Assembly (NCBI GenBank): GCA_900537125.1
Contig: UNRJ01000001.1
Span: forward strand, 727,570-791,569
DNA: 64,000 bases
Direction: 5' to 3'
Source: Rhodobacteraceae bacterium Alg238-R152
GTDB lineage: Bacteria > Pseudomonadota > Alphaproteobacteria > Rhodobacterales > Rhodobacteraceae
The notes under the pieces were generated by a model. It ran no database searches and was not told where the DNA came from. It worked only from the letters and a program-made list of their open reading frames with translations. Shown one piece after another: positions 12,903 to 30,783 of the stretch. How positions within the stretch are numbered: the first letter of the stretch is position 1; each line of letters begins with the position of its first letter. Both the position numbers and the translations under genes were made by a program.

Positions 12903-13838
12903 TCAAAAATTGACTTTGTCGCCCCCCTTTAGATCCAGAATGTCCCGCGCCTCATCGGGTGTGGCGACCTCGCAGCCGAGGTCTTCGACAATGCGGCGGA
13001 TTTTGGCAACCTGCTGTGCGTTGCTCTCCGCCAACTTGCCGCGCGAGATAAACAGGCTGTCTTCCAATCCAACGCGCACGTTACCGCCCATTTGGCTGGC
13101 GGTGGTGCCAAGGGTCATCTGGGAGCCGCCTGCACCGAGTACAGACCAGCGGTAGTCGTCGCCAAAGAGGCGGTCGGCGGTGCGTTTCATAAACACGAGG
13201 TTGTCCACTTCCGGGCCAATGCCGCCGAGGATGCCGAAGATAAACTGAATGAAGATCGGCGCTTTGAACAGACCGATATCCATGCAGAATTTCAAGTTGT
13301 AGAGGTGGCCCACGTCATAACATTCGTGCTCGAACTTGATGTCGTGCGGGGCCAATGTGTCCGCGGCTTCTTTGATGTCACGGAAGGTGTTGCGGAAGAT
13401 GTTTTGATCGGAATTGGCGACGTAGTCTTTTTCCCAGTCAAATTTCCAATCGTCGTCCTTGTACCGATTTGCAAGCGGATGAAAGGAGAAATTCATTGAG
13501 CCCATGTTCATGGAGCACATCTCGGGAGAGAAGGTTTTCGCGGGGTTGATGCGATCTTGAATGGACAGTGTTAGAGAGCCGCCAGTCGAGATGTTCACCA
13601 CTGCATCTGTCGCCTGTTTGATGCGCGGCAAGAATGGCGCAAAGTCGGCCGGGTTCACGGAGGGCGCGCCGGTTTCGTTATTGCGTGCGTGCAGGTGCAG
13701 GATTGATGCGCCTGCCTCGGCAGCATCCATCGCCTGTTGCGCAATGTCATCGTAGGTGTAAGGCAGCGCGTCCGACATGGTCGGCGTGTGGATGGCGCCG
13801 GTGATGGCACAGGTGATGATGGTTTTTTGCTTGGCCAT
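12903..13838 (-). CDS. BKACE-family (DUF849) beta-keto acid cleavage enzyme
   Basis: A 311-residue TIM-barrel enzyme of the beta-keto acid cleavage family (first described as 3-keto-5-aminohexanoate cleavage enzyme). Members are zinc enzymes that react a beta-keto acid with acetyl-CoA to give acetoacetate and a new CoA ester. Likely metal ligands are the two histidines of ILHLHARN and the Glu of VGLEDSLF. It is the last gene of the ten-gene operon and follows livM by 20 bp. The operon also encodes a 3-hydroxyacyl-CoA-dehydrogenase-like enzyme that could make the beta-keto acid. The substrate is unknown; a carnitine-like compound is one possibility, but nothing here proves it. Confidence 0.85.
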   Translation of the reverse strand: MAKQKTIITCAITGAIHTPTMSDALPYTYDDIAQQAMDAAEAGASILHLHARNNETGAPSVNPADFAPFLPRIKQATDAVVNISTGGSLTLSIQDRINPAKTFSPEMCSMNMGSMNFSFHPLANRYKDDDWKFDWEKDYVANSDQNIFRNTFRDIKEAADTLAPHDIKFEHECYDVGHLYNLKFCMDIGLFKAPIFIQFIFGILGGIGPEVDNLVFMKRTADRLFGDDYRWSVLGAGGSQMTLGTTASQMGGNVRVGLEDSLFISRGKLAESNAQQVAKIRRIVEDLGCEVATPDEARDILDLKGGDKVNF

Positions 13839-13858
13839 TTGCGTGGCTCCTTGAGGTG

Positions 13859-14872
13859 TCAGTCGCGTTTGGTGATGCGATAGCCGAGGGGGAAGATTTG
13901 GATGTCGAACCTGCTGCGGATCAGGCCCCAGAGGCCCTTGGGCGCTTTGAGCATGACCACGATGGCAACGATGCCGAGCACGATCAGATACGTGGTGCCG
14001 AGGTCGGCCAGCGTTTCGCGTAGAAGGAAGAATACCAGCGTGCCAATAATCGGGCCTTCGATGGTGCCGATGCCGCCGATCACCACGATGAAGATCACAA
14101 AGGCAGTCCAGTCGTTTACAGAGAACGCGGCGTCAGGAGAGATGCGCAGTTTTTGCAGGAAGATCAGCGCGCCGATCATGGCGGTGAAGGCTGAGGTCAC
14201 CACATAGACAATGAACTTGGTGCGCCAGATGTCGATGCCGAGGCTGCTGGCCGCGGTTTCGTTGTCGCGGATTGCCGTCAGGGCGAGCCCCTTGCGCGAG
14301 CGCAGGAACAGGTAGACTGCGGTTACAACCAGCACGGCCGCGCCCAAGGCTAGCCAGTAAGACAGGCTTTCCCGCATGGCACGTTTGCTGGCCAGCGACT
14401 TGACGATGGCGACAGGCAGGGATGAGCCCGAACCACCGCCAAGGGCGGATACTTGTGCAAAACCGAGGCGAAACACTTCAGCGATCACCCATGTGCCGAT
14501 GGCAAAGTAGGCGCCGCGCAGGCGGAAGATCAGCACAGCGACAGGAATGGAAATCAGCGCGCCCAAAATCCCCGAGAGTGCGATGGCGGCAAGCGGGTGC
14601 AATCCGCCAAACATGGTCAGCGCAAAGAGCATGTAGCCGCCAAATCCGACGTAGGCTTGCTGACCGACTGAGACCAGTCCGGCGTAGCCGGCCATGAGGT
14701 TCCAGAGCGTGGCCAGCGACAGATAGAGGAAAAGTTCCCCCATCAAGCGCATGTCGGCGCGGCCCGCCCACCAAGGGGCAGCGATCAGGGCGATCAGAAC
14801 AAGAGCGCCAAGGATGGCAGCCACGCGGGCGGCCTGAGAGGAACGGGTGACAGAATAAGTCGTGGTGGTCAT
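13859..14872 (-). CDS. livM: Branched-chain amino acid-type ABC permease LivM
   Basis: A 337-residue inner-membrane permease of the LivM family with about nine to ten predicted helices. The characteristic GYAGLVSVGQQAYVGFGGYM region is near the N-terminus and the GGIGTIEGPIIG motif near the C-terminus. It pairs with LivH to form the channel. The start overlaps the livH stop by four bases. In this operon the importer probably carries the substrate of the enzymes encoded around it rather than branched-chain amino acids. Confidence 0.92.
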   Translation of the reverse strand: MTTTTYSVTRSSQAARVAAILGALVLIALIAAPWWAGRADMRLMGELFLYLSLATLWNLMAGYAGLVSVGQQAYVGFGGYMLFALTMFGGLHPLAAIALSGILGALISIPVAVLIFRLRGAYFAIGTWVIAEVFRLGFAQVSALGGGSGSSLPVAIVKSLASKRAMRESLSYWLALGAAVLVVTAVYLFLRSRKGLALTAIRDNETAASSLGIDIWRTKFIVYVVTSAFTAMIGALIFLQKLRISPDAAFSVNDWTAFVIFIVVIGGIGTIEGPIIGTLVFFLLRETLADLGTTYLIVLGIVAIVVMLKAPKGLWGLIRSRFDIQIFPLGYRITKRD

Positions 14873-15732
14873 GCCGAAATCCTCGGGAAGAGGCCGTTGG
14901 GGCGCACGGCGAGAATGATCAGGAAGGCGATGTGGCCTGCGAGGATTTGCCAGCCGGGATCGATCTGGGCACCGATGGTCTGTGCCACGCCCAGGATGAC
15001 GCCGCCAATGAGCGTGCCCCAGAGGTTGCCCAGCCCGCCGATGATTACAGCTTCAAAGCCAAAGATCAGGCGGCCACCGCCGATGGAGGGATCGAAGCTG
15101 GTGCGTATACCGAGCAAAATGCCTGCGACAGCTGTCACAGCGAGGGCCAGCGCCATGGCGAGGCCAAAGATGTGGCGACGGTTCAGGCCCATCAACTGTG
15201 CGATGTCCTGATTGTCGGACACAGCACGGAAGGCTCGGCCCAGAGCTGTTTGGTAAAAGGTCCATTGCAGGCCCCAGATCACCGCGATGGCGATGGCAAA
15301 GGTCAGCACCGGCAGAACGCCGAGGGTCAGCCCGCCGAGTGCAAAGCTAGCGGTTTCCAACCCTCCGGCGGAGAGTTTCTGCGGATCGGCGGTGTAGCCT
15401 TCCAAAAGCGCGTTCTGGATAATTACGCTGAGGCCGAAAGTGACCAAAAGAGGCGGCAGAAGGTCGTCACCCAAAGTTTGGTTGAGAAGGCTACGTTGCA
15501 GCACATAACCGATAGCAGCCATGACTGGCACCACGATCGCGAGCGCCAAGAGCGGATGAATGCCGGTGGCGGTGGTCACTGTGAGGCCAAGGTAGGCAGC
15601 GAGTACGATCAGATCACCATGGGCGATGTTCACCAGTCGCATTACGCCAAAGATCAGCGAGAGACCTGCGGCGAAGAGGGCGTAGAGACCGCCAAGCAGG
15701 GTGCCCTGCACAATTGCGTTCAGCCAATCCAT
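14869..15732 (-). CDS. livH: Branched-chain amino acid-type ABC permease LivH
   Basis: A 287-residue permease of the LivH family with multiple membrane helices. It carries the conserved GLSLIFGVMRLVNIAHGD segment at the N-terminus and GGLGNLWGTLIGG near the C-terminus. The C-terminal AVRPNGLFPR is typical of LivH. It starts 1 bp from the livF stop and overlaps livM. The neighbouring enzymes suggest an organic acid or amide as cargo. Confidence 0.92.
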   Translation of the reverse strand: MDWLNAIVQGTLLGGLYALFAAGLSLIFGVMRLVNIAHGDLIVLAAYLGLTVTTATGIHPLLALAIVVPVMAAIGYVLQRSLLNQTLGDDLLPPLLVTFGLSVIIQNALLEGYTADPQKLSAGGLETASFALGGLTLGVLPVLTFAIAIAVIWGLQWTFYQTALGRAFRAVSDNQDIAQLMGLNRRHIFGLAMALALAVTAVAGILLGIRTSFDPSIGGGRLIFGFEAVIIGGLGNLWGTLIGGVILGVAQTIGAQIDPGWQILAGHIAFLIILAVRPNGLFPRISA

Positions 15733-15733
15733 A

Positions 15734-16441
15734 TTATTCGATCCCGAAATAGGCGCGGGAAATCTCCTCGCGCGAGATTTGGTCTGAGCCGCCTTCGAGT
15801 GAGACGCGGCCCTCTTGCAGGCAGTAGACGCGGGAGGACACAGACAAAGCCTTGGTGATGTCCTGCTCGACGATGATGGCGCTCATGCCTTCGCCAATGA
15901 TGCCGGGTAGGGCGCGGTAGATGTCCTTGATGATCACCGGCGCGAGACCGAGGCTGATCTCGTCAAACAGGATCAGGTCCGGGTTGGACATGAGCGCGCG
16001 GCCAATGGCGACCATCTGTTGCTGACCACCGGATAGCGAGGTGGATTGCTGATCTTTGCGCTCGTCCAGAATGGGGAAGAGTTTGTAGACGGCGTCTAAG
16101 TCCCACGGCCCTTTGCGACCCACCTGCGCCCCGATCATCAGGTTCTCTTTGACGGAGAGCGAGGGGAACAGCTGGCGGCCTTCGGGTACCATGGCGATGC
16201 CGCGCAGGGCGATTTCATCTGCACGCAGCCCGCCGATATCAGCGCCGTCGTGGGAGATCTGTCCGGGGCCATTTTTTAGAAGGCCGGTAATGGAGCGCAT
16301 GAGCGTGGTTTTTCCCGCGCCGTTGGCGCCAATGATGGCAAGCACTTCGCCCGCGTCCACATGCATGTCGACACCGTAGAGCGCTTGAAAATCACCGTAA
16401 TGGGCATCGAGACCGGTCATGGAAAGGATGGCATCAGGCAT
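15734..16441 (-). CDS. livF: Branched-chain amino acid-type ABC ATPase LivF
   Basis: A 235-residue ABC ATPase. Walker A is GANGAGKTT, the signature is LSGGQQQMVAIGRA and Walker B is LILFDEISLGL. The start at 16441 (MPDAILSMTG) is chosen because longer frames run deep into livG; as called it overlaps the livG stop by 8 bp, the usual arrangement. It couples ATP hydrolysis to import through LivH and LivM. Confidence 0.92.
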   Translation of the reverse strand: MPDAILSMTGLDAHYGDFQALYGVDMHVDAGEVLAIIGANGAGKTTLMRSITGLLKNGPGQISHDGADIGGLRADEIALRGIAMVPEGRQLFPSLSVKENLMIGAQVGRKGPWDLDAVYKLFPILDERKDQQSTSLSGGQQQMVAIGRALMSNPDLILFDEISLGLAPVIIKDIYRALPGIIGEGMSAIIVEQDITKALSVSSRVYCLQEGRVSLEGGSDQISREEISRAYFGIE

Positions 16442-17177
16442 CAGCTTCAATCCCAAGATAGATTTCTTTGACCTGCGGGCTGTCCATGATGGTCTTGGGG
16501 TCGCCATCAGCAATCAGCTTGCCAAAGTCGACAACGATCAGGCGGTCGACCACCGACAGCAGCGCGTGCACGACGTGTTCGATCCAGATGATGGTCGTGC
16601 CCCCCGCATGAATGTCTTTGATGGTTTTGATGAGTGAATGGCATTCCGCCTCTGTGAGCCCGCCCGCGATTTCATCGAGCAGCAGAAGCTCCGGCTGTGT
16701 GCAGAGCGCGCGGGTCAGCTCCAGCCGTTTGCGTTCCAGCAAGGTCAGGCTGCCGGCAAGCACGTTGGCTTTGCCCATCAGCTCGGTCTGTTCGAGCACA
16801 TCGATGCAGAGTTTTTCCGCGGCGTGCCCATGCAGCCCAGCAGATTGGGTGGCCGCGATCATCGCGTTTTCAAACACAGTCATGGCGGAAAACGGTTGCG
16901 GCACCTGAAAACTGCGCGCGATGCCTGCGTGGCTGCGCCGTGCAGCACTCCAGCCAGTGATGTCGCGGCCTGCGAACTCAATGCGTCCTGCGTTTGGTTT
17001 CAGCGTACCGGTGATCAGGTTGAACATCGAGGTTTTGCCCGCGCCGTTGGGGCCGAGAACCCCAAGCGCCTCGCCGCGCTGCACCTCATAGCTTTGGTTG
17101 TCAGCCACTGTGACGGCACCAAAGGCCTTGTTGAGGTTTTGCAATTTCAGGATCGTTGTCATCCGGTCCTCTTTCAT
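16434..17177 (-). CDS. livG: Branched-chain amino acid-type ABC ATPase LivG
   Basis: A 247-residue ABC ATPase of the LivG type. Walker A is GPNGAGKTS and Walker B is LLLLDEIAGGL. The signature loop region reads GSLTLLERKRLELTRAL, the degenerate form typical of LivG, and the C-terminus ends EIYLGIEA. It is the first ATPase gene after the binding-protein gene and forms the heterodimer with LivF. Confidence 0.92.
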   Translation of the reverse strand: MKEDRMTTILKLQNLNKAFGAVTVADNQSYEVQRGEALGVLGPNGAGKTSMFNLITGTLKPNAGRIEFAGRDITGWSAARRSHAGIARSFQVPQPFSAMTVFENAMIAATQSAGLHGHAAEKLCIDVLEQTELMGKANVLAGSLTLLERKRLELTRALCTQPELLLLDEIAGGLTEAECHSLIKTIKDIHAGGTTIIWIEHVVHALLSVVDRLIVVDFGKLIADGDPKTIMDSPQVKEIYLGIEADA

Positions 17178-17222
17178 TTTGGGGGGAGCGCGGCGCCGGA
17201 AGAAGTGGCGTCGCGCAGGAGG

Positions 17223-18503
17223 TTAGCTGAGCAGTTTCAGGTCGGACGTGAGCGCGATTTCCGGCGCTGCGGCATTGGCCACAACTTGCAGTTCAAAGCT
17301 GTCGCCGGATTTCTGCCATTGGCCTGCGACCAGCGGTGTTTTGGTGACGTTGTTGATCGGGCCTTTGGACCAATCAACCGGACCCACAATTGTGTTCAGG
17401 CTTGTGCCTGCAATGGCTGCGGTGATGGCCTCTGGATCTTCCAGATCCTCAGCGCGTTTCACCACATCTGCGACCACCTCAAACAAAGCGTGTTTGAAGC
17501 CGATCGGCTGTGTCCACGCGCGTCCGCTGTCGGCAGTATAGCCAGTCGCCAGATCTTTGGCTGAGGCACCGGTCAAGGACGAGGCAAACGGGTGGTTTGG
17601 CGACCACCAGACTTCGGAGCTCAGACCGTCGCCGCGATCACCAAGGCTTTCAATGACGGATGGGAACAACAGCGCCTTGCCGATGGTAACAATCTTCGGA
17701 TTGAAACCTTGCTGCGCAGCCTGCGACCAGAAGGTTGCAAAGTCAGGTGCGATCATATTGCCCGTGACAATCTCACAACCGGCTTCCTTGAAAGCGGCGA
17801 TGTAATTGGAGAAATCATCCGACAAAGGCTGAAACCGGCCTGGATCAATCAGGTCATAACCTGCAGCGGCCAGCGGTGTCGGCAGGCCAAGTTCCGGATG
17901 GCCCCATGCATTGCCGTCCGCGTCGTTTGGAAACAGGCCACCGACTTTTTTGGCGACGCCAGACTGTCCCCACATGTCAAGGAATGCGCCAATCACATCC
18001 TCTAGGCCCCAGAAGAAGTGATAGGTACTGGCGAAACCTTCCCCCGGCACGCCGTTGCGGCCAAAGAAGTACGGCTGCCAAGGGCAGTCGGTGGTGATGC
18101 ACGGCACCTCGTTGATCTCGGCCTGATCGGCAACCGGATTCACGGTGTCTGGCGTGGAGGCGGCGACAATAATGTCGACCTCATCGCGCAGGATCAGGTC
18201 GGCTGCGACTTCGGCGGCGCGGTTTGGGTTAGATTGGCTGTCTTTAGAGATGATCTCCACGTTCCAGCTCTTGCCGTTGTTCTCAATGCCAGAAGACAGC
18301 GCGGCCTCGATGCCCCTCAGCACAAAGTCATCCGCTTCGGCAAACCCTGCCAAGGGGCCGGTGCGCGGGCTGACGTGGCCGACTTTGAGTGTCGGTGTGG
18401 CCGCATAAGCACGTGACGATTTCAGGATCGCAGGCGTGGCGAGAGCCGCCGTGGCTCCTGCCAGAAACGCGCGTCGCGTTGGTGTTTTGAATGTCTTGGT
18501 CAT
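17223..18503 (-). CDS. ABC transporter substrate-binding protein, LivK-like, Tat-exported
   Basis: A 426-residue periplasmic ligand-binding protein of the Leu/Ile/Val family. It begins with a twin-arginine signal (TRRAFLAGATAALATPAIL), so it is probably exported folded by the Tat system. The first strand of the binding fold follows (LKVGHVSPRTGPLAG). The ATG at 18503 is preferred over 18566 because GGAGG lies 5 to 9 bases upstream. It sits between the HAD-family gene and livG and should define the specificity of the operon's importer. The many aromatic residues fit an aromatic or small organic ligand, but this is not diagnostic. Confidence 0.88.
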   Translation of the reverse strand: MTKTFKTPTRRAFLAGATAALATPAILKSSRAYAATPTLKVGHVSPRTGPLAGFAEADDFVLRGIEAALSSGIENNGKSWNVEIISKDSQSNPNRAAEVAADLILRDEVDIIVAASTPDTVNPVADQAEINEVPCITTDCPWQPYFFGRNGVPGEGFASTYHFFWGLEDVIGAFLDMWGQSGVAKKVGGLFPNDADGNAWGHPELGLPTPLAAAGYDLIDPGRFQPLSDDFSNYIAAFKEAGCEIVTGNMIAPDFATFWSQAAQQGFNPKIVTIGKALLFPSVIESLGDRGDGLSSEVWWSPNHPFASSLTGASAKDLATGYTADSGRAWTQPIGFKHALFEVVADVVKRAEDLEDPEAITAAIAGTSLNTIVGPVDWSKGPINNVTKTPLVAGQWQKSGDSFELQVVANAAAPEIALTSDLKLLS

Positions 18504-18543
18504 GTAGTCCTCCCTTGTCCCGGCCTCCCCGCCAGGGTTCTGA

Positions 18544-19470
18544 TTAAGTCTCCAGAATGGTCTCAAGTTTATTCAGGTGGATGGCGACCCGTGCGCGCAC
18601 GGCGTCGGCCTCTGCCTCGGTCCACTTGCGAAACCCTTGGCCGGACTTCATGCCGAGCTTGCCTTGCTCAACCAATCCTTGCAAATACGGCGATGGGCCT
18701 TGGCGGCTTTCGATGTCAAACAGCACGTTTTCGTGGATATCCAAAGTCAGGTCCGTGCCGACCAGATCCGCGTTTTCCAAAGGCCCGAGCACCGCCAGCC
18801 TCCGGCCAAAACTGGATTTGATCACCGTGTCGACGGCTTCGGCGTCACAGATACCGTTTTCCACGAGGCTCACAGCCTCGCGCCATAAAGCATGTTGCAG
18901 GCGATTGCCGATAAAGCCCGGCACGTCTTTTTCCACCATCACCGGGGTTTTCCCGGCATGCGCCAACAGTTCGACCATGATCAGTGCCACGTCGGGGTCA
19001 GTCCATTCGGTTTTAATCACCTCCACAAGTGGGATCATGTGGGGTGGGTTCCACCAGTGGGTTCCTATGGCGCGATCTTTGAGACGAAGCTCCGACATGA
19101 TCTGTGTGATCGGCATCACGGAGGTGTTGGACGCCAGAATGCAATGGTCAGGCGCGTGTTTTTCTACATCGGCAAAGATCGCCTGCTTGAGCTGCATTTT
19201 CTCCGGTACAGCCTCAAAAACCACGTCGGCCGCTTTAACCGCTCCAGCGTTGCAGCCAAACACTTCGATGCGTTTCAGCGACTGGCAGATGTCTTTGTCG
19301 GAAACGCCCATGGGCTGCATGCTGTGCGCGATGCGTTTGCGCACGGATTGGCGGGCGTCCTCGATGGGATCGGTGATCGCAACGGTGTGACCTGCGCGTG
19401 CCATGGTTAGTGCGATGCCATGGCCCATCAAACCAGCCCCGATAACCGCGATATGTTTTTGATCTGACAT
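18544..19470 (-). CDS. 3-hydroxyacyl-CoA dehydrogenase-family NAD-dependent dehydrogenase
   Basis: A 308-residue beta-hydroxyacid dehydrogenase of the 3-HAD fold. The N-terminal NAD motif is VIGAGLMGHGIA, the conserved ASNTSVMPIT is present, and the catalytic His and Glu are in GTHWWNPPHMIPLVE. A C-terminal helical dimerisation domain follows. Relatives include 3-hydroxybutyryl-CoA, L-gulonate and L-carnitine dehydrogenases; the length fits the single-domain forms. Together with the BKACE-family enzyme at the end of the operon it could oxidise a beta-hydroxy acid to the beta-keto acid that BKACE cleaves. It lies 3 bp downstream of the SDR gene. Confidence 0.85.
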   Translation of the reverse strand: MSDQKHIAVIGAGLMGHGIALTMARAGHTVAITDPIEDARQSVRKRIAHSMQPMGVSDKDICQSLKRIEVFGCNAGAVKAADVVFEAVPEKMQLKQAIFADVEKHAPDHCILASNTSVMPITQIMSELRLKDRAIGTHWWNPPHMIPLVEVIKTEWTDPDVALIMVELLAHAGKTPVMVEKDVPGFIGNRLQHALWREAVSLVENGICDAEAVDTVIKSSFGRRLAVLGPLENADLVGTDLTLDIHENVLFDIESRQGPSPYLQGLVEQGKLGMKSGQGFRKWTEAEADAVRARVAIHLNKLETILET

Positions 19471-19473
19471 CGC

Positions 19474-20271
19474 TTAACCCGCCGTGTACCCACCGTCGGC
19501 ATAAAGAATATGCCCGGTGTAGAAGTTGGAAGCTTTGGACGCCAGGAACAGCAGGGGGCCTGCAAGGTCTTCGGGTTCGCCCAAGCGGCCTTTGGGCACG
19601 CGGGTCAAAAAACCGTTGCGCACATTGGTGGCTTCTTCTGTGTCCTCAAACATCCACGCGGTCAGCGGAGAGCGAAAAACAGTTGGCGCAATCGCGTTTA
19701 CTGTGATGCCGGTGGGGCCAAGTTCGCAGCCCAGCGATTTGGTAATGCCATCCACCGCCGCCTTTGACGCGCAATAAGCGGTGTAGCCAGCGGGGTGACC
19801 AAGCAGACCGCGGGCGGACGACACCAGTACAATCTTGCCACCTTTGCCCTGAGTCTTCATCTGACCTGCTGCCGCGCGGGCCAAAAGCCAGCTTTGCGTG
19901 ACATTGGCGTCCATCACGTTGGTGAAGGTCTCAGGCGCCATATCATTGATCAAGGCGACCTTGTTCATGCCGGAGGCCACGACCAGAATGTCGAGTTGGC
20001 CAAAACCCGCAACGGCCTCTTGGATCAACGCCGCACAGGTGTCCTCATCACTGGGGCGGGTGTTCACAGAAACCACCGCGGCGCCCATGTCCCGGCATTC
20101 TTTAGCAATGTCATCCAAGGCGGATTGGTTGCCTGCGGCGAGCACAAGATTGCAGCCAGCTCCGGCCAAAATGCGAGCGGCGACCATGCCAAAAGCGCCA
20201 GAAGCGCCGGTGATCAAGGCGACCTGACCGGCGACCTCAAACATCGAAAGGGGATTGCTCATCGCGGTCAT
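19474..20271 (-). CDS. Short-chain dehydrogenase/reductase
   Basis: A 265-residue classical SDR with cofactor motif ITGASGAFGMV, catalytic YTAYCASKAA and the family C-terminal GHILYADGGYTAG. The upstream cupin gene ends in TAATG, so the two genes overlap; the GGAGG site before it supports the ATG at 20271. It probably oxidises or reduces a hydroxyl/keto group of the unknown operon substrate. The precise reaction cannot be read from the sequence. Confidence 0.88.
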   Translation of the reverse strand: MTAMSNPLSMFEVAGQVALITGASGAFGMVAARILAGAGCNLVLAAGNQSALDDIAKECRDMGAAVVSVNTRPSDEDTCAALIQEAVAGFGQLDILVVASGMNKVALINDMAPETFTNVMDANVTQSWLLARAAAGQMKTQGKGGKIVLVSSARGLLGHPAGYTAYCASKAAVDGITKSLGCELGPTGITVNAIAPTVFRSPLTAWMFEDTEEATNVRNGFLTRVPKGRLGEPEDLAGPLLFLASKASNFYTGHILYADGGYTAG

Positions 20272-20630
20272 TAGTTTGCCTCCGACTTTGCTGCGGGCGG
20301 GTAGGGGATCACCACAAGCATCTTGCAGACGTCATTGCGGCGGTTCTCGATGGTGCGCACCTCATTTGGCGCAATGGTGCAGCTGTCGTATTGGCCCAGA
20401 ACGGTTTCTTGGCCGTCCACGATCACTGTCATCTCGCCTTCGAGCACCACATAGATTTTCTCAAACGGTGTGCTGTCCGGACCGGCGCCACCGCCGGGAA
20501 GGAACTGGCTAAAGCCAATCCATTGATTTTCGGGGCCACCTTCTTCGAAGCCCTGCAGGCGCAGGCCGTGACAGCCGTAGTGGTTTGGCGCCTCATAGGG
20601 CTGCGCGTTCTGAAAGCGTTTGAGATGCAT
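20271..20630 (-). CDS. Small cupin-domain protein
   Basis: A 119-residue single cupin barrel. The second half shows the pattern YVVLEGEMTVIVDGQETVLG followed by DSCTIAPNEVRTIEN. The first cupin motif lacks a clear HxH triad, so metal binding is doubtful. It could be an isomerase, a small dioxygenase-like enzyme or a binding protein. It lies between the cyclase-family gene and the SDR gene in the same operon, implying a role in the same pathway. Confidence 0.75.
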   Translation of the reverse strand: MHLKRFQNAQPYEAPNHYGCHGLRLQGFEEGGPENQWIGFSQFLPGGGAGPDSTPFEKIYVVLEGEMTVIVDGQETVLGQYDSCTIAPNEVRTIENRRNDVCKMLVVIPYPPAAKSEAN

Positions 20631-20653
20631 TGGGTTACTCCGTTGCGAAAAGA

Positions 20654-20675
20654 GGCCGCCGCCGCGGCGGCGGCC
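20654..20675 (-). terminator. Perfect 22-bp GC palindrome between cyclase and cupin genes
   Basis: All 22 bases from 20654 to 20675 form a perfect self-complementary sequence of GCC/GGC units. On the minus strand it is followed by TCTTTTCG. It resembles an internal terminator or attenuator and could reduce expression of the genes downstream of the cyclase. Confidence 0.6.
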
Positions 20676-20692
20676 AGTTTGCTTGGGAAGAA

Positions 20693-21529
20693 TTAGAAGT
20701 CTTCGCCGGGCTCAATGCGGTAGCTTTGGCCTTTGTCGATCATCGCCACGAGGCGGATGATACAACCGTCACCACGGTCCCAGTTCCAGGGGAAGAAGGC
20801 GAAGGTGCAGCGCTTACCGGTCACCGCATCCAGATCGCCGCCGACGTTTTCAATGCCGAGAATGCCTTTGGAAAAGAGCGCCTGGTGGACAGGTTCCCAC
20901 TCTGGGAAATCGTCTTTCCAATCACGGCCACCAGACCATTCTTTGTACTCTTCCTCGAGATGCGGCAGGATCGGACCATTGCGCTGCGGACCGATGGCAG
21001 TAGCCAGGGGATGGTCGTTGGCCTGTGTGTCGTGGCCGACAACCTTCACGCCTTTCTCGATCATCCATTCGGCGGCAGAGGGCACAAGGCCGGGGCAATA
21101 GGCAAAGTAATCGCCGTCTTCATACTGTTTGTGCCAGCCAGTATTGATGATCAGCACATCGCCTTTGCGGATCGCATGGCCGCAGGCCTTCTCCAGATCG
21201 TCACCGGTGATTGGCTCCCATTTCTTTTTCGGGATCGACACCACGAGACCGGAACCAAAGAAGTGCGGCAGTGGAACTTCGTCAATGAAGGGTGTGCCCT
21301 GCACCACATGCGCTGGCGCGTCGATGTGGGTGGTAACGTGCATGGTTGTGGTGATTGTCTGGCTCAGCACACCGGACTTGGCCATGTAGTGCTTCCGGTC
21401 GATCTGAACGTCTTTGAAATAGGGCCAGTTTGGGCACTGGAACCCGTAGCGGTGGCTGAGGTTGTAGAACTCCAACCCCATGTCGTTCTCTGTGTTTGCC
21501 TGAAACTCAATGCCGCGAATTTCTACCAT
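20693..21529 (-). CDS. Cyclase-family (kynurenine formamidase-like) metal hydrolase
   Basis: A 278-residue member of the cyclase family (PF04199), metal-dependent hydrolases of amides or lactones that include bacterial kynurenine formamidase. The metal-binding signature is visible as TTMHVTTHIDAPAH, and a further conserved HDTQANDHP follows. The ATG at 21529 is preferred because GGAGG lies 8 bp upstream. It is the first gene of the ten-gene operon, starts just below the IclR-type operator region, and is probably the entry enzyme acting on the imported compound. It is longer than classical KynB (about 210 residues), so a kynurenine substrate is not implied. Confidence 0.83.
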   Translation of the reverse strand: MVEIRGIEFQANTENDMGLEFYNLSHRYGFQCPNWPYFKDVQIDRKHYMAKSGVLSQTITTTMHVTTHIDAPAHVVQGTPFIDEVPLPHFFGSGLVVSIPKKKWEPITGDDLEKACGHAIRKGDVLIINTGWHKQYEDGDYFAYCPGLVPSAAEWMIEKGVKVVGHDTQANDHPLATAIGPQRNGPILPHLEEEYKEWSGGRDWKDDFPEWEPVHQALFSKGILGIENVGGDLDAVTGKRCTFAFFPWNWDRGDGCIIRLVAMIDKGQSYRIEPGEDF

Positions 21530-21745: not shown

Positions 21746-22501
21746 GTGACTGAAGTTGAAGATAAAAATTCGAGATCCGGCATTCAGGTCATTGCTCGCG
21801 CGGCGGCCATTTTGCGCGTTCTGAAAAAAATACAAACCGGATTGAGCCTTGGCCAGATCGCAGAGCAAGTGGGTTTGCCCCGCTCTACGGTACAGAGAAT
21901 CACAAGCGCGCTGGTGGAAGAAAACCTCTTGATCAGCGCGCCGCAGGGGCGCGGGCTTATTCTGGGGCCGGAGTTTTCTTCGATTGCCAGCAGCGCACAG
22001 TATAACATTGTAGAGCACTGCCGCCTTTTATTGACGGAACTGACGCAAAAGACCGGTGAAACCACGGATCTTGCGGTGATGCGTGGGATTGGCATGGTTT
22101 TTCTGGATCAGGTTCCTGGGACCCATCGATTGACAACTGTATCGCAAGTGGGGGAGGTCTTCCCACTGACGACAACGGCAAATGGAAAAGCGTGTTTGGC
22201 AGGCTTGCCAAATGATGAAGCTTTGAAGCTGGCTCAGAATGAATGGGACCGAAATGGTGTGACCGTGGAGGTCTCACGTTTCTTGTCAGAGTTGGACGGC
22301 GTGCGTGAAACCGGATTGGCTTACGACTTGGATGAGCATTCTGGAGGGGTGTCCGCGATAGGCTTTGCGTTTCGGGATTGGGTCGGAGATTTGCACGCTA
22401 TTTCTGTGCCGGTGCCGTCTTCCAGATTTGAGGCACAAAAGGATCTTATTGAGCGTGCGCTGCGAGAGACGGCTGACCATATTCAGGCAACATTTGAATA
22501 G
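21746..22501 (+). CDS. IclR-family transcriptional regulator
   Basis: A 251-residue regulator with an N-terminal winged helix (GLSLGQIAEQVGLPRSTVQRIT, about residues 34-55) and a C-terminal IclR effector domain (GMVFLDQVPGTHRL, TTTANGKACLAGL). Translation starts at GTG (21746), supported by GAGGGG about 8 bp upstream. It diverges from the ten-gene operon and is its likely local regulator; an aromatic or short-chain acid effector is usual in this family. Whether it activates or represses cannot be told. Confidence 0.9.
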   Translation: MTEVEDKNSRSGIQVIARAAAILRVLKKIQTGLSLGQIAEQVGLPRSTVQRITSALVEENLLISAPQGRGLILGPEFSSIASSAQYNIVEHCRLLLTELTQKTGETTDLAVMRGIGMVFLDQVPGTHRLTTVSQVGEVFPLTTTANGKACLAGLPNDEALKLAQNEWDRNGVTVEVSRFLSELDGVRETGLAYDLDEHSGGVSAIGFAFRDWVGDLHAISVPVPSSRFEAQKDLIERALRETADHIQATFE

Positions 22502-22545: not shown

Positions 22546-24048
22546 CTAAGTTGTAAATCGGTCGCGTAGCAGGTTCTTTTGCACTTTGCCCATGGTGTTG
22601 CGGGGCAGTTCAGAAAGCAGTTCATAGCGCCGCGGGTGTTTGAAACGTGCCAGCTTTTCTGCGACGGCTTGGACAAAAACACTCTCGGGAACCTCAGCGC
22701 CACTTTCCAAAACGACTGCGGCCACAACCGACTCTCCAAAGTCAGCGTGGGGCACGCCAAATGCAGCGGTTTCCTCAACGCCTTCTATGTCGTTGAGAAC
22801 CGTTTCGATTTCTTTGGGGTAGATGTTGTAGCCGCCAGAGATGATCAGATCTTTCTGACGACCGACGATATGCACGTAGCCGTCCGCATCGACCATGCCC
22901 AAATCACCGGTGATGAAGAACCCGTCTTCGCGCAGCTCTTCGGCGGTTTTGTTTGGCATATTCCAGTAGCCGGCAAAGACATTGGGACCGCGAACTTCGA
23001 TCATGCCCACTTCGCCGTCTGGCAATGTTTCCAAGCTGTTCGGCGCGGTAATGCGGACCTCAGTGCCTGGCAAGGGGAAGCCAACGGTGCCGGCGCGGCG
23101 TTCACCACTATAAGAGTTAGACGTGTTCATATTGGTTTCTGTCATGCCGTAGCGCTCCAGAATGCGATGGCCAGTGCGCTGTTCAAACTCAATGTGTGTT
23201 TCAGCAAGCAGGGGGGCAGAGCCGGACGTGAATAGGCGCATGTTGGCGCAGGCCTGCTTGATGAACCGCGGGTCAGACAGCAGGCGGGTATAGAAGGTGG
23301 GCACCCCCATCATCAAGGTGGCTTCTGGCAGGTTTGAAAGGACGGTGTCCACGTCGAATTTTTGTATCAGCCGCACCTGAGCGCCCGCGATCATCGCCGT
23401 ATTCATCGCCACAAAGAGGCCGTGGGTGTGGAAGATTGGCAAGGCGTGGATCAGGCGATCTTGATTGGTGATCTGCCAAAGGTCGGTCAATACCTCTGCA
23501 TTGGACAAGATGTTGCGATGAGTGAGCTTGGCGCCTTTGCTGCGCCCTGTTGTGCCTGAGGTGTAGAGCAGGGCCGCCAAGTCTTCCGGCCCGCGCGGCA
23601 CGGTTTGGAAGGTGTCAGACGCGTTGGCAACTTGTTCTGTCAGGCTGCCCCGGCCATCAGCGTCCAGGGTCAAGATGCGCGCGCCGCAGGTTTCGGCCAC
23701 TGGCGAGAGCGCGTCCACAGATGCGGTTTCGCAAACGATCACAGATGGGGTGGCGTCGCCAATGAAATACTGCATCTCATCTGCGGTGTAGGCGGTGTTG
23801 AGGGGAAGGTAGACGCCGCCCGCCTGAAGGGTCGCGCCATAAAGTGCCAGAGTTTGCGCAAGTTTGGGCGCTTGAACCACAACCCGATCCCCCGGCTTCA
23901 AACCCGCAGCAACTAGAGCGTTTGCTGTTTTGGCCACCAGCGTCACAAATTCAGCGTAGGTGAGTATTGCCCCGTCGTCGGTTTCCAGGAAAGGCGCGGG
24001 GTTGGCAGAGTGTGCTCCCAGCAGAGCGTCAAAAAGGAAGTTGGTCAT
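22546..24048 (-). CDS. matB: Malonyl-CoA synthetase
   Basis: A 500-residue acyl-adenylate-forming enzyme of the MatB type, which makes malonyl-CoA from malonate, CoA and ATP. The P-loop motif LLYTSGTTGRSKGAKLTH, the ERYGMTETNMNTSNSYSGERRAGTVG-type region, and the C-terminal lysine region (GKVQKN) are clear. The motif after the TE(T)NMNTSN segment is characteristic of malonyl-CoA ligases rather than fatty-acyl ones. It overlaps the upstream malonyl-CoA decarboxylase gene by four bases, and the two together convert malonate to acetyl-CoA. Confidence 0.9.
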   Translation of the reverse strand: MTNFLFDALLGAHSANPAPFLETDDGAILTYAEFVTLVAKTANALVAAGLKPGDRVVVQAPKLAQTLALYGATLQAGGVYLPLNTAYTADEMQYFIGDATPSVIVCETASVDALSPVAETCGARILTLDADGRGSLTEQVANASDTFQTVPRGPEDLAALLYTSGTTGRSKGAKLTHRNILSNAEVLTDLWQITNQDRLIHALPIFHTHGLFVAMNTAMIAGAQVRLIQKFDVDTVLSNLPEATLMMGVPTFYTRLLSDPRFIKQACANMRLFTSGSAPLLAETHIEFEQRTGHRILERYGMTETNMNTSNSYSGERRAGTVGFPLPGTEVRITAPNSLETLPDGEVGMIEVRGPNVFAGYWNMPNKTAEELREDGFFITGDLGMVDADGYVHIVGRQKDLIISGGYNIYPKEIETVLNDIEGVEETAAFGVPHADFGESVVAAVVLESGAEVPESVFVQAVAEKLARFKHPRRYELLSELPRNTMGKVQKNLLRDRFTT

Positions 24049-25304
24049 TTCGAAGTCTCGGTTTTCTGAGTGTTCAGGCGTTGCGCCATGCTGCGGGCTT
24101 TTTGTTGCAAGGTGCGCGATGCGGCGATGGTGTGATTGAGGGCGAAGCTCTCGTGGTTTCGCTCTGTTTGGCTGAGGTCATAGAGGTAGTTCACCATGAC
24201 CCCGCCGGATAGCGCTTTGCCTTTGTCGGTGATGTCAGCTTCCTCGTGTACCGCGTGGATCAACGCACCATTGCCAAGGTGAAAGCGGGCGACGGGATCA
24301 TAGGGGAAGCCGTCCTTGCGTTTAGCGTTGAGCAGATAGTGGGCTGCCAAGTCAGCGTCGACTGGCAGTGTCTCCAGCGATTGCTGAGCTTGCCATTTGC
24401 GCAGCAGGGGGATTGGAGACAGGGTCACAAAGGTTGTGAGGTGGGGGAGCTGTGTGCTGAGTTCCGAGGCCACCTGTTTGATCAGAAGATTGCCAAAACT
24501 GATGCCCGCAAGCCCCTGTTGGCAATTGGAAATGGAGTAGAAAACAGCGGTCCGCGCGGTGTCGATGTCTAGTGTCTCACGGTCCTCCGCCAACACGTCC
24601 TGGATCGAGCCGGGAATGTCCTTGGTTAGCGCGACTTCGACAAAAATCAGGGGGTCCTCCGGCATGGCAGGGTGAAAAAAAGCGAAGCAGCGCCGGTCCT
24701 CCGGATGTAGACGGCGGCGTAAATCTTCCCAATCCATGATTTCATGCACGGCCTCATAGGCCACAATTTTCTCTAGGATGTTGGCAGGCGTGGACCAAGT
24801 GATTTGTCGCAAAACCAGAAAGCCTCGGTTGAACCAGCTGGTTAGCAAGTGCACCAGGTCCAGGTCTGTGCGTTTCAGGTTCGGGTCGTCTTTTACATAG
24901 TCCAGTAAGTCGACGCGCATTTGAACCAATGCGGCGGTCGCGCCTTCGGCCTGATTGAGGCGGCGGAACAGTTCTTGGCGGCGTGGCTCCGCGGCTTTCA
25001 CCAAGGCGGCGAAGTTTTCCGGAGTGGGGTCCTCATCATACCGCGCGGCGAGTTCTTTGATTTGCGCCGGGTTCACATCCCAAACGTCATTCAGGTGGGT
25101 GAAGAAGGCGTGTTTCCCAGCCTTGTCCATGGATTGATATCGCGCCAGTAGGGCCGCTGCGATACGGCGGCCAGAGACCTGTCCCTCAGTGGACAGCAAA
25201 GCTTCGCAGAGTTCCGCAATTGAGCGGTCGTCCAGATCGTCGCTGCTTTTGCGCAGATCGAGCAGCCCGGTGAGAAAGTCCGAAACGCTTGTTGGTTTGG
25301 CCAC
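24045..25304 (-). CDS. matA: Malonyl-CoA decarboxylase
   Basis: A 419-residue malonyl-CoA decarboxylase, which releases CO2 from malonyl-CoA to give acetyl-CoA. It has the helical N-terminal domain and the GNAT-like catalytic domain with the conserved FYSISNCQQGLAGISFGNLL segment and LSPIPLLRKW. The C-terminal YDLSQTERNHESFA is also typical. The length is as expected for bacterial MCDs. It lies between a small YciI-like gene and matB in a three-gene operon. Confidence 0.92.
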   Translation of the reverse strand: MAKPTSVSDFLTGLLDLRKSSDDLDDRSIAELCEALLSTEGQVSGRRIAAALLARYQSMDKAGKHAFFTHLNDVWDVNPAQIKELAARYDEDPTPENFAALVKAAEPRRQELFRRLNQAEGATAALVQMRVDLLDYVKDDPNLKRTDLDLVHLLTSWFNRGFLVLRQITWSTPANILEKIVAYEAVHEIMDWEDLRRRLHPEDRRCFAFFHPAMPEDPLIFVEVALTKDIPGSIQDVLAEDRETLDIDTARTAVFYSISNCQQGLAGISFGNLLIKQVASELSTQLPHLTTFVTLSPIPLLRKWQAQQSLETLPVDADLAAHYLLNAKRKDGFPYDPVARFHLGNGALIHAVHEEADITDKGKALSGGVMVNYLYDLSQTERNHESFALNHTIAASRTLQQKARSMAQRLNTQKTETSK

Positions 25305-25781: not shown

Positions 25782-26642
25782 ATGAGATTCATTGTTGGGA
25801 AAACGGCCGACGCGGCTGGCGTATTTGCGGTGCAAGGCGACGCAGCCAAAAAGCTACCGGGCGCGGATAGCGACCTGCTGCAGCTGATTGAAGATGGAGG
25901 CACAGTGCCAGCCTTTGACACAATCGATGCGGCGCCGGTATCGGTGGGCGCGATTGAGCCGGCGCTGCCCATCGCCAAGCCCGGCAAGATCATCTGCCTT
26001 GGGCTCAACTATGTCGATCATATCAAAGAAGGCGGGTACGACGTGCCTGAGTATCCGGCGCTGTTCATGCGTGGCCGCAATTCCATCATGCCAGCTGGGG
26101 CACCGATGGTGCGCCCGTCCTGTTCCGAAAAGCTCGATTATGAGGTGGAACTGATGCTGATTGTTGGCAAAGGCGGTCGGCATATTCGTGAAGAAGACGC
26201 GCTAGACCATGTGTTTGGCTACACATTGTTTAATGATGGGTCTGTGCGGGACTATCAGCGCAAGACCCATCAGTGGACGCCCGGCAAAAACTTTGATGAC
26301 ACAGGTGCGATTGGGCCGGTGGTTGTGACACCAGATGAGTTGCCAGAAGGCGCGACGGGTCTGAAGATCGAGAGCCGCGTCGGTGATGAGATTCTTCAGA
26401 GCGCGACCACTTCTGACATGATGTGGTCCGTGGCGCGTACTATTGCGACCATTTCTGAATACACCACGTTGGAGTCAGGTGATTACATCGCCATGGGCAC
26501 ACCGCCAGGTGTTGGACATGCCAAGACGCCGCCACGCTGGTTGCGGCCGGGGGAAACCGTAGAGGTTGAAATTGAAGGTATTGGTATTTGCGCAAATCCG
26601 ATTGTGGATGAAGCTGACGTGGTGGCGAGGACCGTTCAATGA
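25782..26642 (+). CDS. Fumarylacetoacetate hydrolase-family protein
   Basis: A 286-residue FAH-fold enzyme. The N-terminal extension is followed by the catalytic domain with GLNYVDHIKE, metal ligands in YEVELMLIVG and NDGSVRDYQRK, and the C-terminal GTPPGVGHAKTPPRWL. Members hydrolyse or decarboxylate acylpyruvates and related diketo acids from aromatic or sugar catabolism. Its divergence from malonyl-CoA genes and co-transcription with an intradiol dioxygenase suggest a ring-cleavage product as substrate, possibly releasing malonate or a C3 acid. That is inference. It overlaps the next gene as ATGA. Confidence 0.88.
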   Translation: MRFIVGKTADAAGVFAVQGDAAKKLPGADSDLLQLIEDGGTVPAFDTIDAAPVSVGAIEPALPIAKPGKIICLGLNYVDHIKEGGYDVPEYPALFMRGRNSIMPAGAPMVRPSCSEKLDYEVELMLIVGKGGRHIREEDALDHVFGYTLFNDGSVRDYQRKTHQWTPGKNFDDTGAIGPVVVTPDELPEGATGLKIESRVGDEILQSATTSDMMWSVARTIATISEYTTLESGDYIAMGTPPGVGHAKTPPRWLRPGETVEVEIEGIGICANPIVDEADVVARTVQ

Positions 26643-27304
26643 CCGCTCTGGTTGGGGATGAACTGAAGCGCGCGCGGGCGGAGGCCCAGGCCTCCGTCCG
26701 CGCGCTTCGGGGGCGCAAATCGGAGCTCGATAGTGACAGTATAGATGTTATCCTGGCCGATGCCCGATCCCATTATGCCTGGCAAAACAAGCCGGTGTCA
26801 GACGCGCTTTTGCTCCGCCTTTATGAGATCACGTCAGCTGGCCCAACCAGTATGAACACTTGTCCAGCGCGCTTTGTCTTTGTGAAAAGCCAAGAGGGCA
26901 AAGAGCGGCTTGCCAAGTCGTTGAAGGACAAAAACATCGACAAGATGATGGCTGCGCCGGTGACAGCGATCATTGCGCATGATCTGGAATTTTGGCGCTA
27001 CCTGCCGTTCCTGTTTCCACACGAAGATCGTCGGCCACATTTTGAAGGCAAACCCGAGCACAGTGAAACCACAGCGTTTCGCAATGGCACGTTGCAGGGG
27101 GCGTACTTCATGATCGCAGCACGGGCGCTTGGGCTGGACGTTGGCGCCATGAGCGGATTCTCAAATGCAGTTGTGGATGAAGAGTTTTTTGCCGGAACCA
27201 CACTGCGGTCAAATTTTCTGTGTAACCTTGGCTATGCGGACGAAGCCGCGCTGTTCCAGAAACTGCCGCGGTTTCCTTTTGAACAAGCCTGCAACTACGC
27301 GTGA
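26639..27304 (+). CDS. Nitroreductase-family protein, RutE/malonic semialdehyde reductase-like
   Basis: A 221-residue flavoprotein of the nitroreductase superfamily. The SAGPTSMNTCPARFVFV segment near residue 62 closely resembles RutE/HadB-type malonic semialdehyde reductases, which use NAD(P)H to make 3-hydroxypropionate. A C-terminal FLCNLGYADE segment supports the FMN-binding fold. Its start overlaps the FAH gene stop. In a cluster with malonyl-CoA enzymes, a malonic semialdehyde-like intermediate is plausible, but the subgroup also contains uncharacterised reductases. Confidence 0.78.
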   Translation: MTALVGDELKRARAEAQASVRALRGRKSELDSDSIDVILADARSHYAWQNKPVSDALLLRLYEITSAGPTSMNTCPARFVFVKSQEGKERLAKSLKDKNIDKMMAAPVTAIIAHDLEFWRYLPFLFPHEDRRPHFEGKPEHSETTAFRNGTLQGAYFMIAARALGLDVGAMSGFSNAVVDEEFFAGTTLRSNFLCNLGYADEAALFQKLPRFPFEQACNYA

Positions 27305-27316
27305 GGATCAAGCACT

Positions 27317-27772
27317 ATGGCCATTCGTCAAAAGACCGTTGTGACGATCAAGATGTCTGGTTTTGCCAGCAGTCATAGCCATTGCGTAGTGCATACGCGC
27401 GACCTGTCGCTGACCATTGACGAGCCGGTGGAACGGGGCGGGACCAATCTTGGGTTTTCGCCAACCGAAACGGCCTATGCCGCCTTAGTCGGGTGCACCA
27501 ACACCATCGGCCACAAGTGCGCGGCCAAATTGGAGGTGGATATTGGGCACCTCGAGTTCGAGATGGAAATCGATTTCGACCGGCGTGGCGTGCTGTTGCA
27601 GGAAGAAATCGAGGTTCCGTTCAAAGCCATTCGTCTGGACGTGACGTCGGACGGCGCCGCCAACGCGGAGGAGTTGGCGCGGGTGGCGGCGGAAACCGAG
27701 AAATACTGTGCCGTTTCAAAGATGTACAAAAATGCAGGCACAGAGGTGGAGGTCAGCTGGACCAAGAAATGA
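27317..27772 (+). CDS. OsmC-family protein
   Basis: A 151-residue OsmC/Ohr-type protein. The two conserved redox cysteines are visible in ALVGCTNTIG and KYCAVSKM, and the GGTNLGFSPTE motif precedes them. OsmC proteins reduce organic hydroperoxides; some OsmC-domain proteins are attached to catabolic pathways with unknown roles. It sits 12 bp after the nitroreductase gene and 33 bp before the TRAP receptor, within the same operon, so a protective or hydrolytic role in this pathway is likely. Confidence 0.85.
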   Translation: MAIRQKTVVTIKMSGFASSHSHCVVHTRDLSLTIDEPVERGGTNLGFSPTETAYAALVGCTNTIGHKCAAKLEVDIGHLEFEMEIDFDRRGVLLQEEIEVPFKAIRLDVTSDGAANAEELARVAAETEKYCAVSKMYKNAGTEVEVSWTKK

Positions 27773-27805
27773 CCTCGTAAATTTGAACCATCCAGGGAGG
27801 AGACG

Positions 27806-28876
27806 ATGGGAATGATGAATAAAGGATTGGCGCTGGGCGCTTTGATGGCCGGATTGGCTGCGGCCCCGGCATTTGCACAGGAAACCATCAAAGCGGTTGT
27901 GATCGACGGGTATCCGGCGCGCGCGCTATGGGTCAAGGAATTCACCAATTTTTTCATTCCGGAGGTCGACAAAAAGTTGGCCAAAACCGGCAACTACCAA
28001 ATGGATTGGCAGGAGAGCTATGGCGGCTCGATTGTGAAGCCCAAAGGTGTGTTGGAGGGGGTCAAGCTTGGCCTTGGTGACATTGGTATCGTGACCACCA
28101 TCTTCCACAGCTCGAAACTGCCCTCTCAGGCGATTTCTGCGGTGACACCTTTTGTGGCAGCGGATGCGCGTGCGGTAGCTAAGGCGGTGGACGAGATCGC
28201 CAAAGAATACCCGACCATGCAGAATGAGTTTGACAAGCAAAACCAAGTCTATCTGGCGACCGGTGTTGTGCTGGACACCTATCAGGTGTTCTCCAAAGAG
28301 CCGGTGAATTCGGTGAGTGACATCGAAGGCGCCAAGGTGGCCGGTGCGGGTATGAACTTGCGCTATTTGGAGGGTATCGAAGGGGCTGCCGGTGTGCGCG
28401 GTGGTTTGACCGACTTCTACAACATGCTGGACACTGGTTTGGTGGACAAAGCCATGCTGTGGCCGGAAGCAGCCAAGACCTTCAAGATTGCCGAAGTGGC
28501 GCCATACATGCTGCGGGCCGACCTGGGCGCAGTGAACTCCAAAACCATTACAGTGAACAAGGACTACTGGGAAGGTCTGCCGGATGAGGTAAAAACAGCC
28601 CTAGAAGAGGTCGCGGTGATGTATCGGGATCATGTGGCGGGCATTGCCATGGATCGTGCGGCAGAAAGCCGGGACGCTTACGCGGCGGCAGGCGGGACCA
28701 TTGTTGACGTGACCACCGAAGACCGCGCCAAATGGGCGGCAGCGATGCCAAACATTGCGGCGGAGTGGGCCAAGACGTTGGACAAAAGGGGGGAGCCAGG
28801 CAGCGAGATGCTCAGCGCTTATCTCGGGAAGCTCGAAGCCGCTGGCTACACCGGCGTGCGCAACTGGGCCGAGTGA
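27806..28876 (+). CDS. TRAP transporter substrate-binding protein (DctP)
   Basis: A 356-residue periplasmic receptor of the DctP family with a signal peptide (MNKGLALGALMAGLAAAPAFA). It differs clearly from the hexuronate DctP at 5565. GGGAGG ends 5 bp before the ATG at 27806. Downstream are the dctQ and dctM genes of the same importer. The cargo is not evident; malonate or the aromatic or diketo acid precursor of this pathway are the leading candidates because the flanking genes act on these. Confidence 0.88.
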   Translation: MGMMNKGLALGALMAGLAAAPAFAQETIKAVVIDGYPARALWVKEFTNFFIPEVDKKLAKTGNYQMDWQESYGGSIVKPKGVLEGVKLGLGDIGIVTTIFHSSKLPSQAISAVTPFVAADARAVAKAVDEIAKEYPTMQNEFDKQNQVYLATGVVLDTYQVFSKEPVNSVSDIEGAKVAGAGMNLRYLEGIEGAAGVRGGLTDFYNMLDTGLVDKAMLWPEAAKTFKIAEVAPYMLRADLGAVNSKTITVNKDYWEGLPDEVKTALEEVAVMYRDHVAGIAMDRAAESRDAYAAAGGTIVDVTTEDRAKWAAAMPNIAAEWAKTLDKRGEPGSEMLSAYLGKLEAAGYTGVRNWAE

Positions 28877-28909
28877 TCGGCTGATCCAAAAGACTGAAAG
28901 GGCCTGACT

Positions 28910-30774: not shown

Positions 30775-30783
30775 GAGGCGCCC

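Follow-up and report, generated by a model that had tools for sequence, protein, structure and literature searches.

What does a bacterium import and break down with an operon in which a beta-keto acid cleavage enzyme (BKACE) is joined to a cyclase-family hydrolase, a cupin, a short-chain dehydrogenase/reductase (SDR), a 3-hydroxyacyl-CoA dehydrogenase-fold enzyme (HCDH) and a Liv-type importer? The question is raised by ten minus-strand genes at positions 12,903–21,529 of a 64,000-nucleotide stretch, here called the window, of Rhodobacteraceae bacterium Alg238-R152 (assembly GCA_900537125.1, contig UNRJ01000001.1, positions 727,570 to 791,569). Public annotation names them 'cyclase', 'cupin', 'SDR', '3-hydroxyacyl-CoA dehydrogenase', 'branched-chain amino acid transporter' and '3-keto-5-aminohexanoate cleavage protein'. 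An initial annotation of the window, made from the letters alone, had assigned the ten genes to these families, and in this it was right: all of the open reading frames (ORFs) are open and Pfam agrees. It had also stated that no described pathway has this combination and that the substrate cannot be named from sequence, and on both counts it has to be revised. Passages of a 2023 study of Clostridium scatologenes describe phloroglucinol degradation by PGR (an SDR), DPGC ('cyclase' family), TfD (3-hydroxyacyl-CoA dehydrogenase family) and TAL (BKACE family), which were reconstituted in vitro and induced in cells, and they report the cluster in marine alphaproteobacteria (PMC10470551). The pathway is thus already published, and marine alphaproteobacteria are already known carriers. 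All four of its enzyme families lie together in the operon described here, which argues for a phloroglucinol route. The substrate can be named from sequence with good confidence, and the operon very probably imports phloroglucinol, or a simple derivative from which phloroglucinol is released, and degrades the ring reductively without O2.

In the pathway that we propose, phloroglucinol would be taken up by the Liv-type ABC importer and its keto tautomer reduced by the SDR, with NAD(P)H, to dihydrophloroglucinol. The metal-dependent cyclase-family enzyme would then hydrolyse a C–C bond of the ring to give (S)-3-hydroxy-5-oxohexanoate, which the 3-HCDH-fold enzyme would oxidise with NAD+ to 3,5-dioxohexanoate (triacetate), and BKACE would convert triacetate and acetyl-CoA to acetoacetate and acetoacetyl-CoA. 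A 3-oxoacid CoA-transferase encoded elsewhere and thiolase would complete the conversion to acetyl-CoA, for a net yield of three acetyl-CoA per ring by a redox-neutral, O2-free route. The steps from ring reduction to triacetate cleavage have been demonstrated biochemically for the Clostridium enzymes, according to passages of PMC10470551; for this organism we infer them from family, clade, motifs and synteny. Elsewhere in the genome there is a 3-oxoacid CoA-transferase A/B pair (216.2 and 325.7 bits, against cut-offs of 128.5 and 243.55), and nothing scored above the cut-off of the acetoacetyl-CoA synthetase model.

The best match of the SDR in the Protein Data Bank (PDB) is 5g4k (180.6 bits), which we take to be the PGR of Clostridium sp. 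ATCC BAA-442; the next other protein, 3r1i, scores 40 bits lower (140.2). GxNK and PTVFRSxLTxWMF motifs are common to the SDR and 5g4k and are lacking from the next two PDB chains. Of 96 distinct SDR rows from these operons, 94 cover the PTVFRS stretch and all 94 have it unchanged; the Lys of GxNK occurs in 87 of the 96. In a tree of 26 rows, for which the program warns of long branches, 5g4k forms a clade with 17 SDRs of these and paralogous clusters (support 99/96), and the eight rows outside it are two other PDB SDRs, five other SDRs and the SDR of locus L137. That a PGR structure from Clostridium sp. ATCC BAA-442 exists is stated in the passages of PMC10470551 at hand. The SDR had initially been cast as an oxidising step; its clade and motifs suggest that it is probably reductive, and the best reading is a reductive dearomatisation of phloroglucinol.

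The cyclase carries the metal motif H64/H68/D70/H74 together with W35-P36-Y37 in 103/103 distinct rows. It has the fold family and metal motif of isatin hydrolase and kynurenine formamidase, although the sequences are very distant, and it has Trp-x-Tyr where the pocket of isatin hydrolase has Ile32 and Leu34. In DPGC, Trp20 and Tyr22 are described as standing in for these same two residues (passages of PMC10470551), and we equate W35 and Y37 with them by motif. Cyclases of the Novosphingobium, Mycobacterium and G928 clusters have WPY as well; six tandem-cyclase paralogues do not retain it. In favour of the pathway put forward at first, in which the cyclase opens an amide or lactone, the SDR and 3-HCDH oxidise and BKACE cleaves, isatin hydrolase and kynurenine formamidase are among the amidases that belong to the cyclase family, and a Liv importer would suit an amide. 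However, similarity to those amidases is weak (profile E 0.007 to isatin hydrolase B; 46 bits on the arylformamidase model, cut-off 223), the SDR groups with the aromatic-ring reductase 5g4k, and the known phloroglucinol pathway accounts for all four enzymes, so that we regard this scheme as very improbable. The cyclase is better read as a retro-Claisen C–C hydrolase, probably acting on dihydrophloroglucinol.

Two further kinds of cyclase neighbourhood were seen in other genomes. At L119 (8171–12850), L140 (6669–10363) and L141 (2125–4960), two tandem cyclases (about 40–51% identical to the one in the operon) lie beside a PGR-clade SDR and an HCDH; their pocket WPY is altered, the three loci gave no BKACE match, and in L119 an annotated fumarylacetoacetase adjoins the tandem cyclases. 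These clusters are possibly a sister pathway for another polyphenol. In L107 (10913–11866), L061 (10901–11821), L042 (10910–11872) and L120 (10912–11895) a hydrolase gene, of the alpha/beta-hydrolase COesterase/BD-FAE-like or MBL-fold type, sits between cyclase and cupin, and a possible role for such inserted hydrolases is upstream cleavage of an ester or ether of phloroglucinol derivatives.

For the HCDH, residues were mapped through human HAD, with the alignment read by eye and on the residue numbering that we take to apply to the human enzyme. Ser117, His138 and Asn189 of the HCDH are conserved and equal the catalytic and stereo-determining residues, there is a gap across the region of the CoA-contact Lys, and the region of the second CoA-contact Asn differs. 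Passages of PMC10470551 report for TfD that the catalytic His, Ser and Asn are kept and that the CoA-contact Lys and Asn are missing, a likeness which argues for a TfD-like free-acid dehydrogenase. That a 3-HAD-type enzyme makes the beta-keto acid, as first suggested, is most likely. Carnitine and vitamin B6 degradation use related enzymes: FHMPC dehydrogenase, the best NCBIfam match of the HCDH, belongs to the vitamin B6 route, carnitine 3-dehydrogenase matches as well, and BKACE acts in carnitine degradation. However, all of these matches fall far under their cut-offs (FHMPC dehydrogenase 236 bits against 500, carnitine 3-dehydrogenase 150.8 against 592, L-carnitine dehydrogenase 125.3 against 414), and no other gene of either pathway was recognised within the operon. 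A variant of carnitine or vitamin B6 degradation was rejected on these cut-offs and is the least probable of the readings that we considered, with next to no weight beside a TfD-type step toward triacetate.

The final enzyme of the proposed route scores 536.1 bits on NF053538 ('3,5-dioxohexanoate:acetyl-CoA acetone transferase'), with a cut-off of 430. The genome encodes five BKACEs, and the other four reach only 205.6, 148.7, 136.7 and 68.7 bits on this model, with one of them passing the 3-oxoadipate model (463.6 against 350). The earlier assignment of BKACE to the cleavage of a beta-keto acid with acetyl-CoA is most likely correct. BKACEs of close operons are 61–96% identical to this one. 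Its closest solved relative is BKACE15 of Paracoccus denitrificans (8rio/8rip/9hnf; PMC11961710; 379 bits, about 56% identity), with which it has the TGAIHTP start in common. The passages of PMC11961710 at hand include 3,5-dioxohexanoate among the confirmed substrates of BKACE15, of which several are beta-keto acids, and state its biological role as unknown.

We compared the locus with related ones in named genomes, where 417 candidate stretches encode a cyclase relative and 80 loci were kept; 12 of these 80 were set aside because less than 9 kb follows the cyclase, and synteny counts rest on the remaining 68. The complete ten-gene set is present on one strand and in the same order in 60 of the 68, and an IclR gene lies directly upstream and divergent in 66; the arrangement is not due to chance. 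The co-occurrence of cyclase, 3-HAD and BKACE, which the initial annotation proposed to look for, is thus seen in these loci; its single catabolic operon with an importer is supported and the divergent IclR gene is confirmed. At 45% identity or higher, and irrespective of position within the locus, HCDH is present in 67 of the 68, BKACE and cupin in 66 each, SDR in 65, Liv genes in 65–66 and IclR in 67. Among the 80 kept loci, Shimia sp. Alg240-R146 has the operon that is nearest for most of the genes (L104; BKACE 96%, LivM 96%).

Departures from the common order are few. The IclR gene is lacking in L038, and in L047 the upstream side is cut and the IclR match is placed beyond BKACE. L053 lacks BKACE, and L055 has every enzyme gene and no Liv genes. 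SDR and cupin lie on the opposite side of the IclR gene in L056 and L070, and in L070 LivH and LivM were not found and are probably off the locus. In L076, L078 and L110 the cupin–SDR pair is absent behind the cyclase; in all three genomes the two genes are paired elsewhere with an IclR gene of their own, and the linkage thus survives rearrangement. The cyclase is present in 33 of 295 family genomes (in G027 through tandem paralogues only), in 4 of 385 genomes sampled across the class and in 7 of 398 sampled across the phylum, the own genome being included each time, and these frequencies indicate a patchy accessory pathway.

A pointer to the substrate comes from PF18089, the DAPG/phloretin hydrolase family, which has member genes within four related operons, namely L107, L088, L138 and, with two copies, L102. 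Those of L107 and L102 match the Pfam model at 146–154 bits (cut-off 22.7), and those of L088 and L138 were recognised by similarity (62% and 59% identity). These genes point to phloroglucinol, and a phloretin hydrolase is noted in Mycobacterium clusters in passages of PMC10470551. They also suggest acyl-phloroglucinols upstream, and hence a different reading, in which the same chemistry acts on another meta-polyphenol or on a cyclic 1,3-diketone, for instance a phloroglucinol bearing an alkyl, acyl or carboxyl group, and gives BKACE a substituted 3,5-dioxoacid; the acceptance of several beta-keto acids by BKACE15 (PMC11961710, in the passages at hand) favours it too. We consider a substituted substrate unlikely, since the NF053538 equivalog is defined for unsubstituted 3,5-dioxohexanoate, only L088, L102 and L107 among the 80 named loci contain PF18089, and the SDR and cyclase pocket motifs fit those given for phloroglucinol enzymes. 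In the own genome the sole PF18089 match is partial (27.5 bits) and lies outside the operon, at L121 241–1836 (C5), where two adjacent ORFs are PhlG-like by eye, next to a MeaB/ArgK-like GTPase ORF, likewise named by eye. Enrichment of PF18089 with the cyclase across the family was set aside as evidence: the two occur in 4 and 33 of the 295 genomes, respectively, and together in only two, G000 (27.5 bits, part of the profile) and G243.

Several observations weigh against phloroglucinol as the substrate of the operon. The comparison with the assayed Clostridium proteins runs indirectly, through families, motifs and 5g4k. PGRs are reported, in passages of PMC10470551, to conserve a TR(S/N) motif whose Arg binds the 2'-phosphate of NADPH; this Arg is absent from the operon SDRs, with Gly47 at its position in 96/96 distinct rows. 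The SDR is thus not classed as an NADPH-type phloroglucinol reductase, and Gly47 suggests that it uses NADH or binds NADPH in another mode. The SDR adjoining the G928 cluster (L137, 41% identical) is without the PTVFRS loop and is placed outside the PGR clade. A Mycobacterium cluster that also holds an SDR, a cyclase and a cupin has a BKACE only 29% identical to the one here and under the NF053538 cut-off (181.1 against 430). The model therefore misses some BKACEs of clusters like these, which draw on more than one subgroup of the enzyme. The BKACE here may belong to a different subgroup from the Clostridium TAL, which passages of PMC10470551 liken to the 3-keto-5-aminohexanoate enzyme. PF18089 is rare in the family as well as among the named loci, and in G243 the PF18089 gene is far from the cyclase. 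Finally, L069 (Maliponia aquimaris) has IclR, cyclase and cupin, and the 9 kb around them contain none of the remaining enzyme and importer genes; it looks like a remnant or a split operon.

The cupin is the one protein of the set for which neither sequence nor fold gave a function (NF050094 100.9 bits, cut-off 175). In 105 of 108 distinct places no more than 700 bp separate the SDR from a cupin gene. Of the three exceptions, L116 and L119 have a cupin gene at a greater distance within the cluster, and the 14 kb examined at L141 yielded none. Its only His residues are at positions 2, 17 and 21, and H17 is the sole invariant His among 27 rows; it is therefore unlikely to bind metal in the usual cupin manner, and the His ligands that metal-dependent cupin enzymes have in the two cupin motifs are missing. 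An AF2 model (pLDDT 85.2, pTM 0.77) has TM1459 as its nearest solved fold, and the polyketide cyclase RemF also matches it (TM 0.78, rank 31). The main text of PMC10470551 uses neither 'cupin' nor 'ABC transporter'. From its near-constant place beside the SDR we infer that the cupin serves the reductase step. A more tentative idea, which we hold to be possible and rather less than even, is that the proteobacterial version is a distinct two-protein reductase: a PGR without the NADPH-phosphate Arg would use NADH together with an obligate cupin partner, free of metal, whose part would be to present phloroglucinol or bring about its tautomerisation (or to handle dihydrophloroglucinol). In a closed NADH/NAD+ loop with the triacetate-forming dehydrogenase, this aromatic ring would then yield acetyl-CoA without the use of an oxygenase and at zero net redox cost.

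The operon and the Clostridium scatologenes cluster have the same four enzyme families, with diagnostic residues matching for three of them, and each also has a regulator and a transporter. The Clostridium proteins CsPGR, CsDPGC, CsTfD and CsTAL have the accessions AKA68207.1, AKA68208.1, AKA68216.1 and AKA68213.1, respectively. They differ in that the operon has the extra cupin, contains no thiolase or CoA-transferase, has an SDR without the NADPH-motif Arg, and encodes a Liv-type ABC importer where passages of PMC10470551 give a 'major family transporter'. The transport gene differs by cluster in other bacteria too, being a major facilitator superfamily gene in a Novosphingobium cluster and a permease in a Mycobacterium cluster. 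The deoxyribonate pathway of Pseudomonas simiae likewise has an SDR and a BKACE and releases acetoacetate, although the role proposed for its SDR is the direct oxidation of a beta-hydroxy acid; the passages at hand list a lactonase for that pathway and mention neither a cyclase nor a cupin nor a 3-HCDH (PMC6365646). Among the literature matches listed (best 20 of 453 and best 25 of 373) no paper reports phloroglucinol use by named Rhodobacterales, and only the abstract of PMC10470551 names these enzymes.

Coordinates of the operon and its divergent regulator are given below. The operon genes are separated by anything from short overlaps to 62 bp (ORF coordinates, with LivF taken from the Met at 16441), and the IclR gene starts 216 bp from the operon.

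Features of the predicted phloroglucinol operon (window coordinates)
Feature	Coordinates	Strand	Basis
BKACE, predicted 3,5-dioxohexanoate (triacetate) cleavage enzyme, TAL step	12903..13838	-	PF05853; NF053538 536.1 bits
LivM-type permease	13859..14872	-	BPD_transp_2
LivH-type permease	14869..15732	-	BPD_transp_2
LivF-type ABC ATPase	15734..16441	-	ABC_tran; Met start inside mechanical ORF 15734-16513
LivG-type ABC ATPase	16434..17177	-	ABC_tran, BCA_ABC_TP_C
Periplasmic binding protein of Liv-type importer	17223..18503	-	Peripla_BP_6 133.2 bits; position conserved
3-HCDH-fold dehydrogenase, predicted (S)-3-hydroxy-5-oxohexanoate dehydrogenase (TfD)	18544..19470	-	Pfam 3HCDH_N/3HCDH
SDR, predicted phloroglucinol reductase (PGR)	19474..20271	-	best PDB match 5g4k 180.6 bits
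Small cupin, SDR partner gene, no His metal ligands	20271..20630	-	Cupin_2 43.2 bits
Cyclase-family hydrolase, predicted dihydrophloroglucinol cyclohydrolase (DPGC)	20693..21529	-	PF04199 116.5 bits
Divergent IclR-family regulator, probable local regulator of operon	21746..22501	+	upstream/divergent in 66/68 loci

The putative roles of the importer in phloroglucinol uptake and of the IclR protein in control of the operon are taken from gene position; the best NCBIfam match of the regulator is BhcR at 95.5 bits, far under the cut-off of 350. Phloroglucinol is the unit of brown-algal phlorotannins (tannins). An operon with generic annotation thus gains an exact, testable function and supplies a candidate phloroglucinol importer, and its presence predicts which roseobacters and relatives would use phloroglucinol carbon by an O2-independent route.

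Just past the IclR gene, at 22546–25304, a malonyl-CoA synthase gene (NCBIfam 775 bits, cut-off 558) adjoins one for malonyl-CoA decarboxylase. Among loci L036–L115 a match to the synthase at more than 60% identity is found in L062 and L115 only, so that this malonate-use pair is probably outside the operon. Beyond it, positions 25782–31650 encode an FAA hydrolase, a nitroreductase-family protein, a TRAP transporter and an intradiol catechol-type dioxygenase (under the listed equivalog cut-offs), which probably make up a second, separate catabolic cluster.

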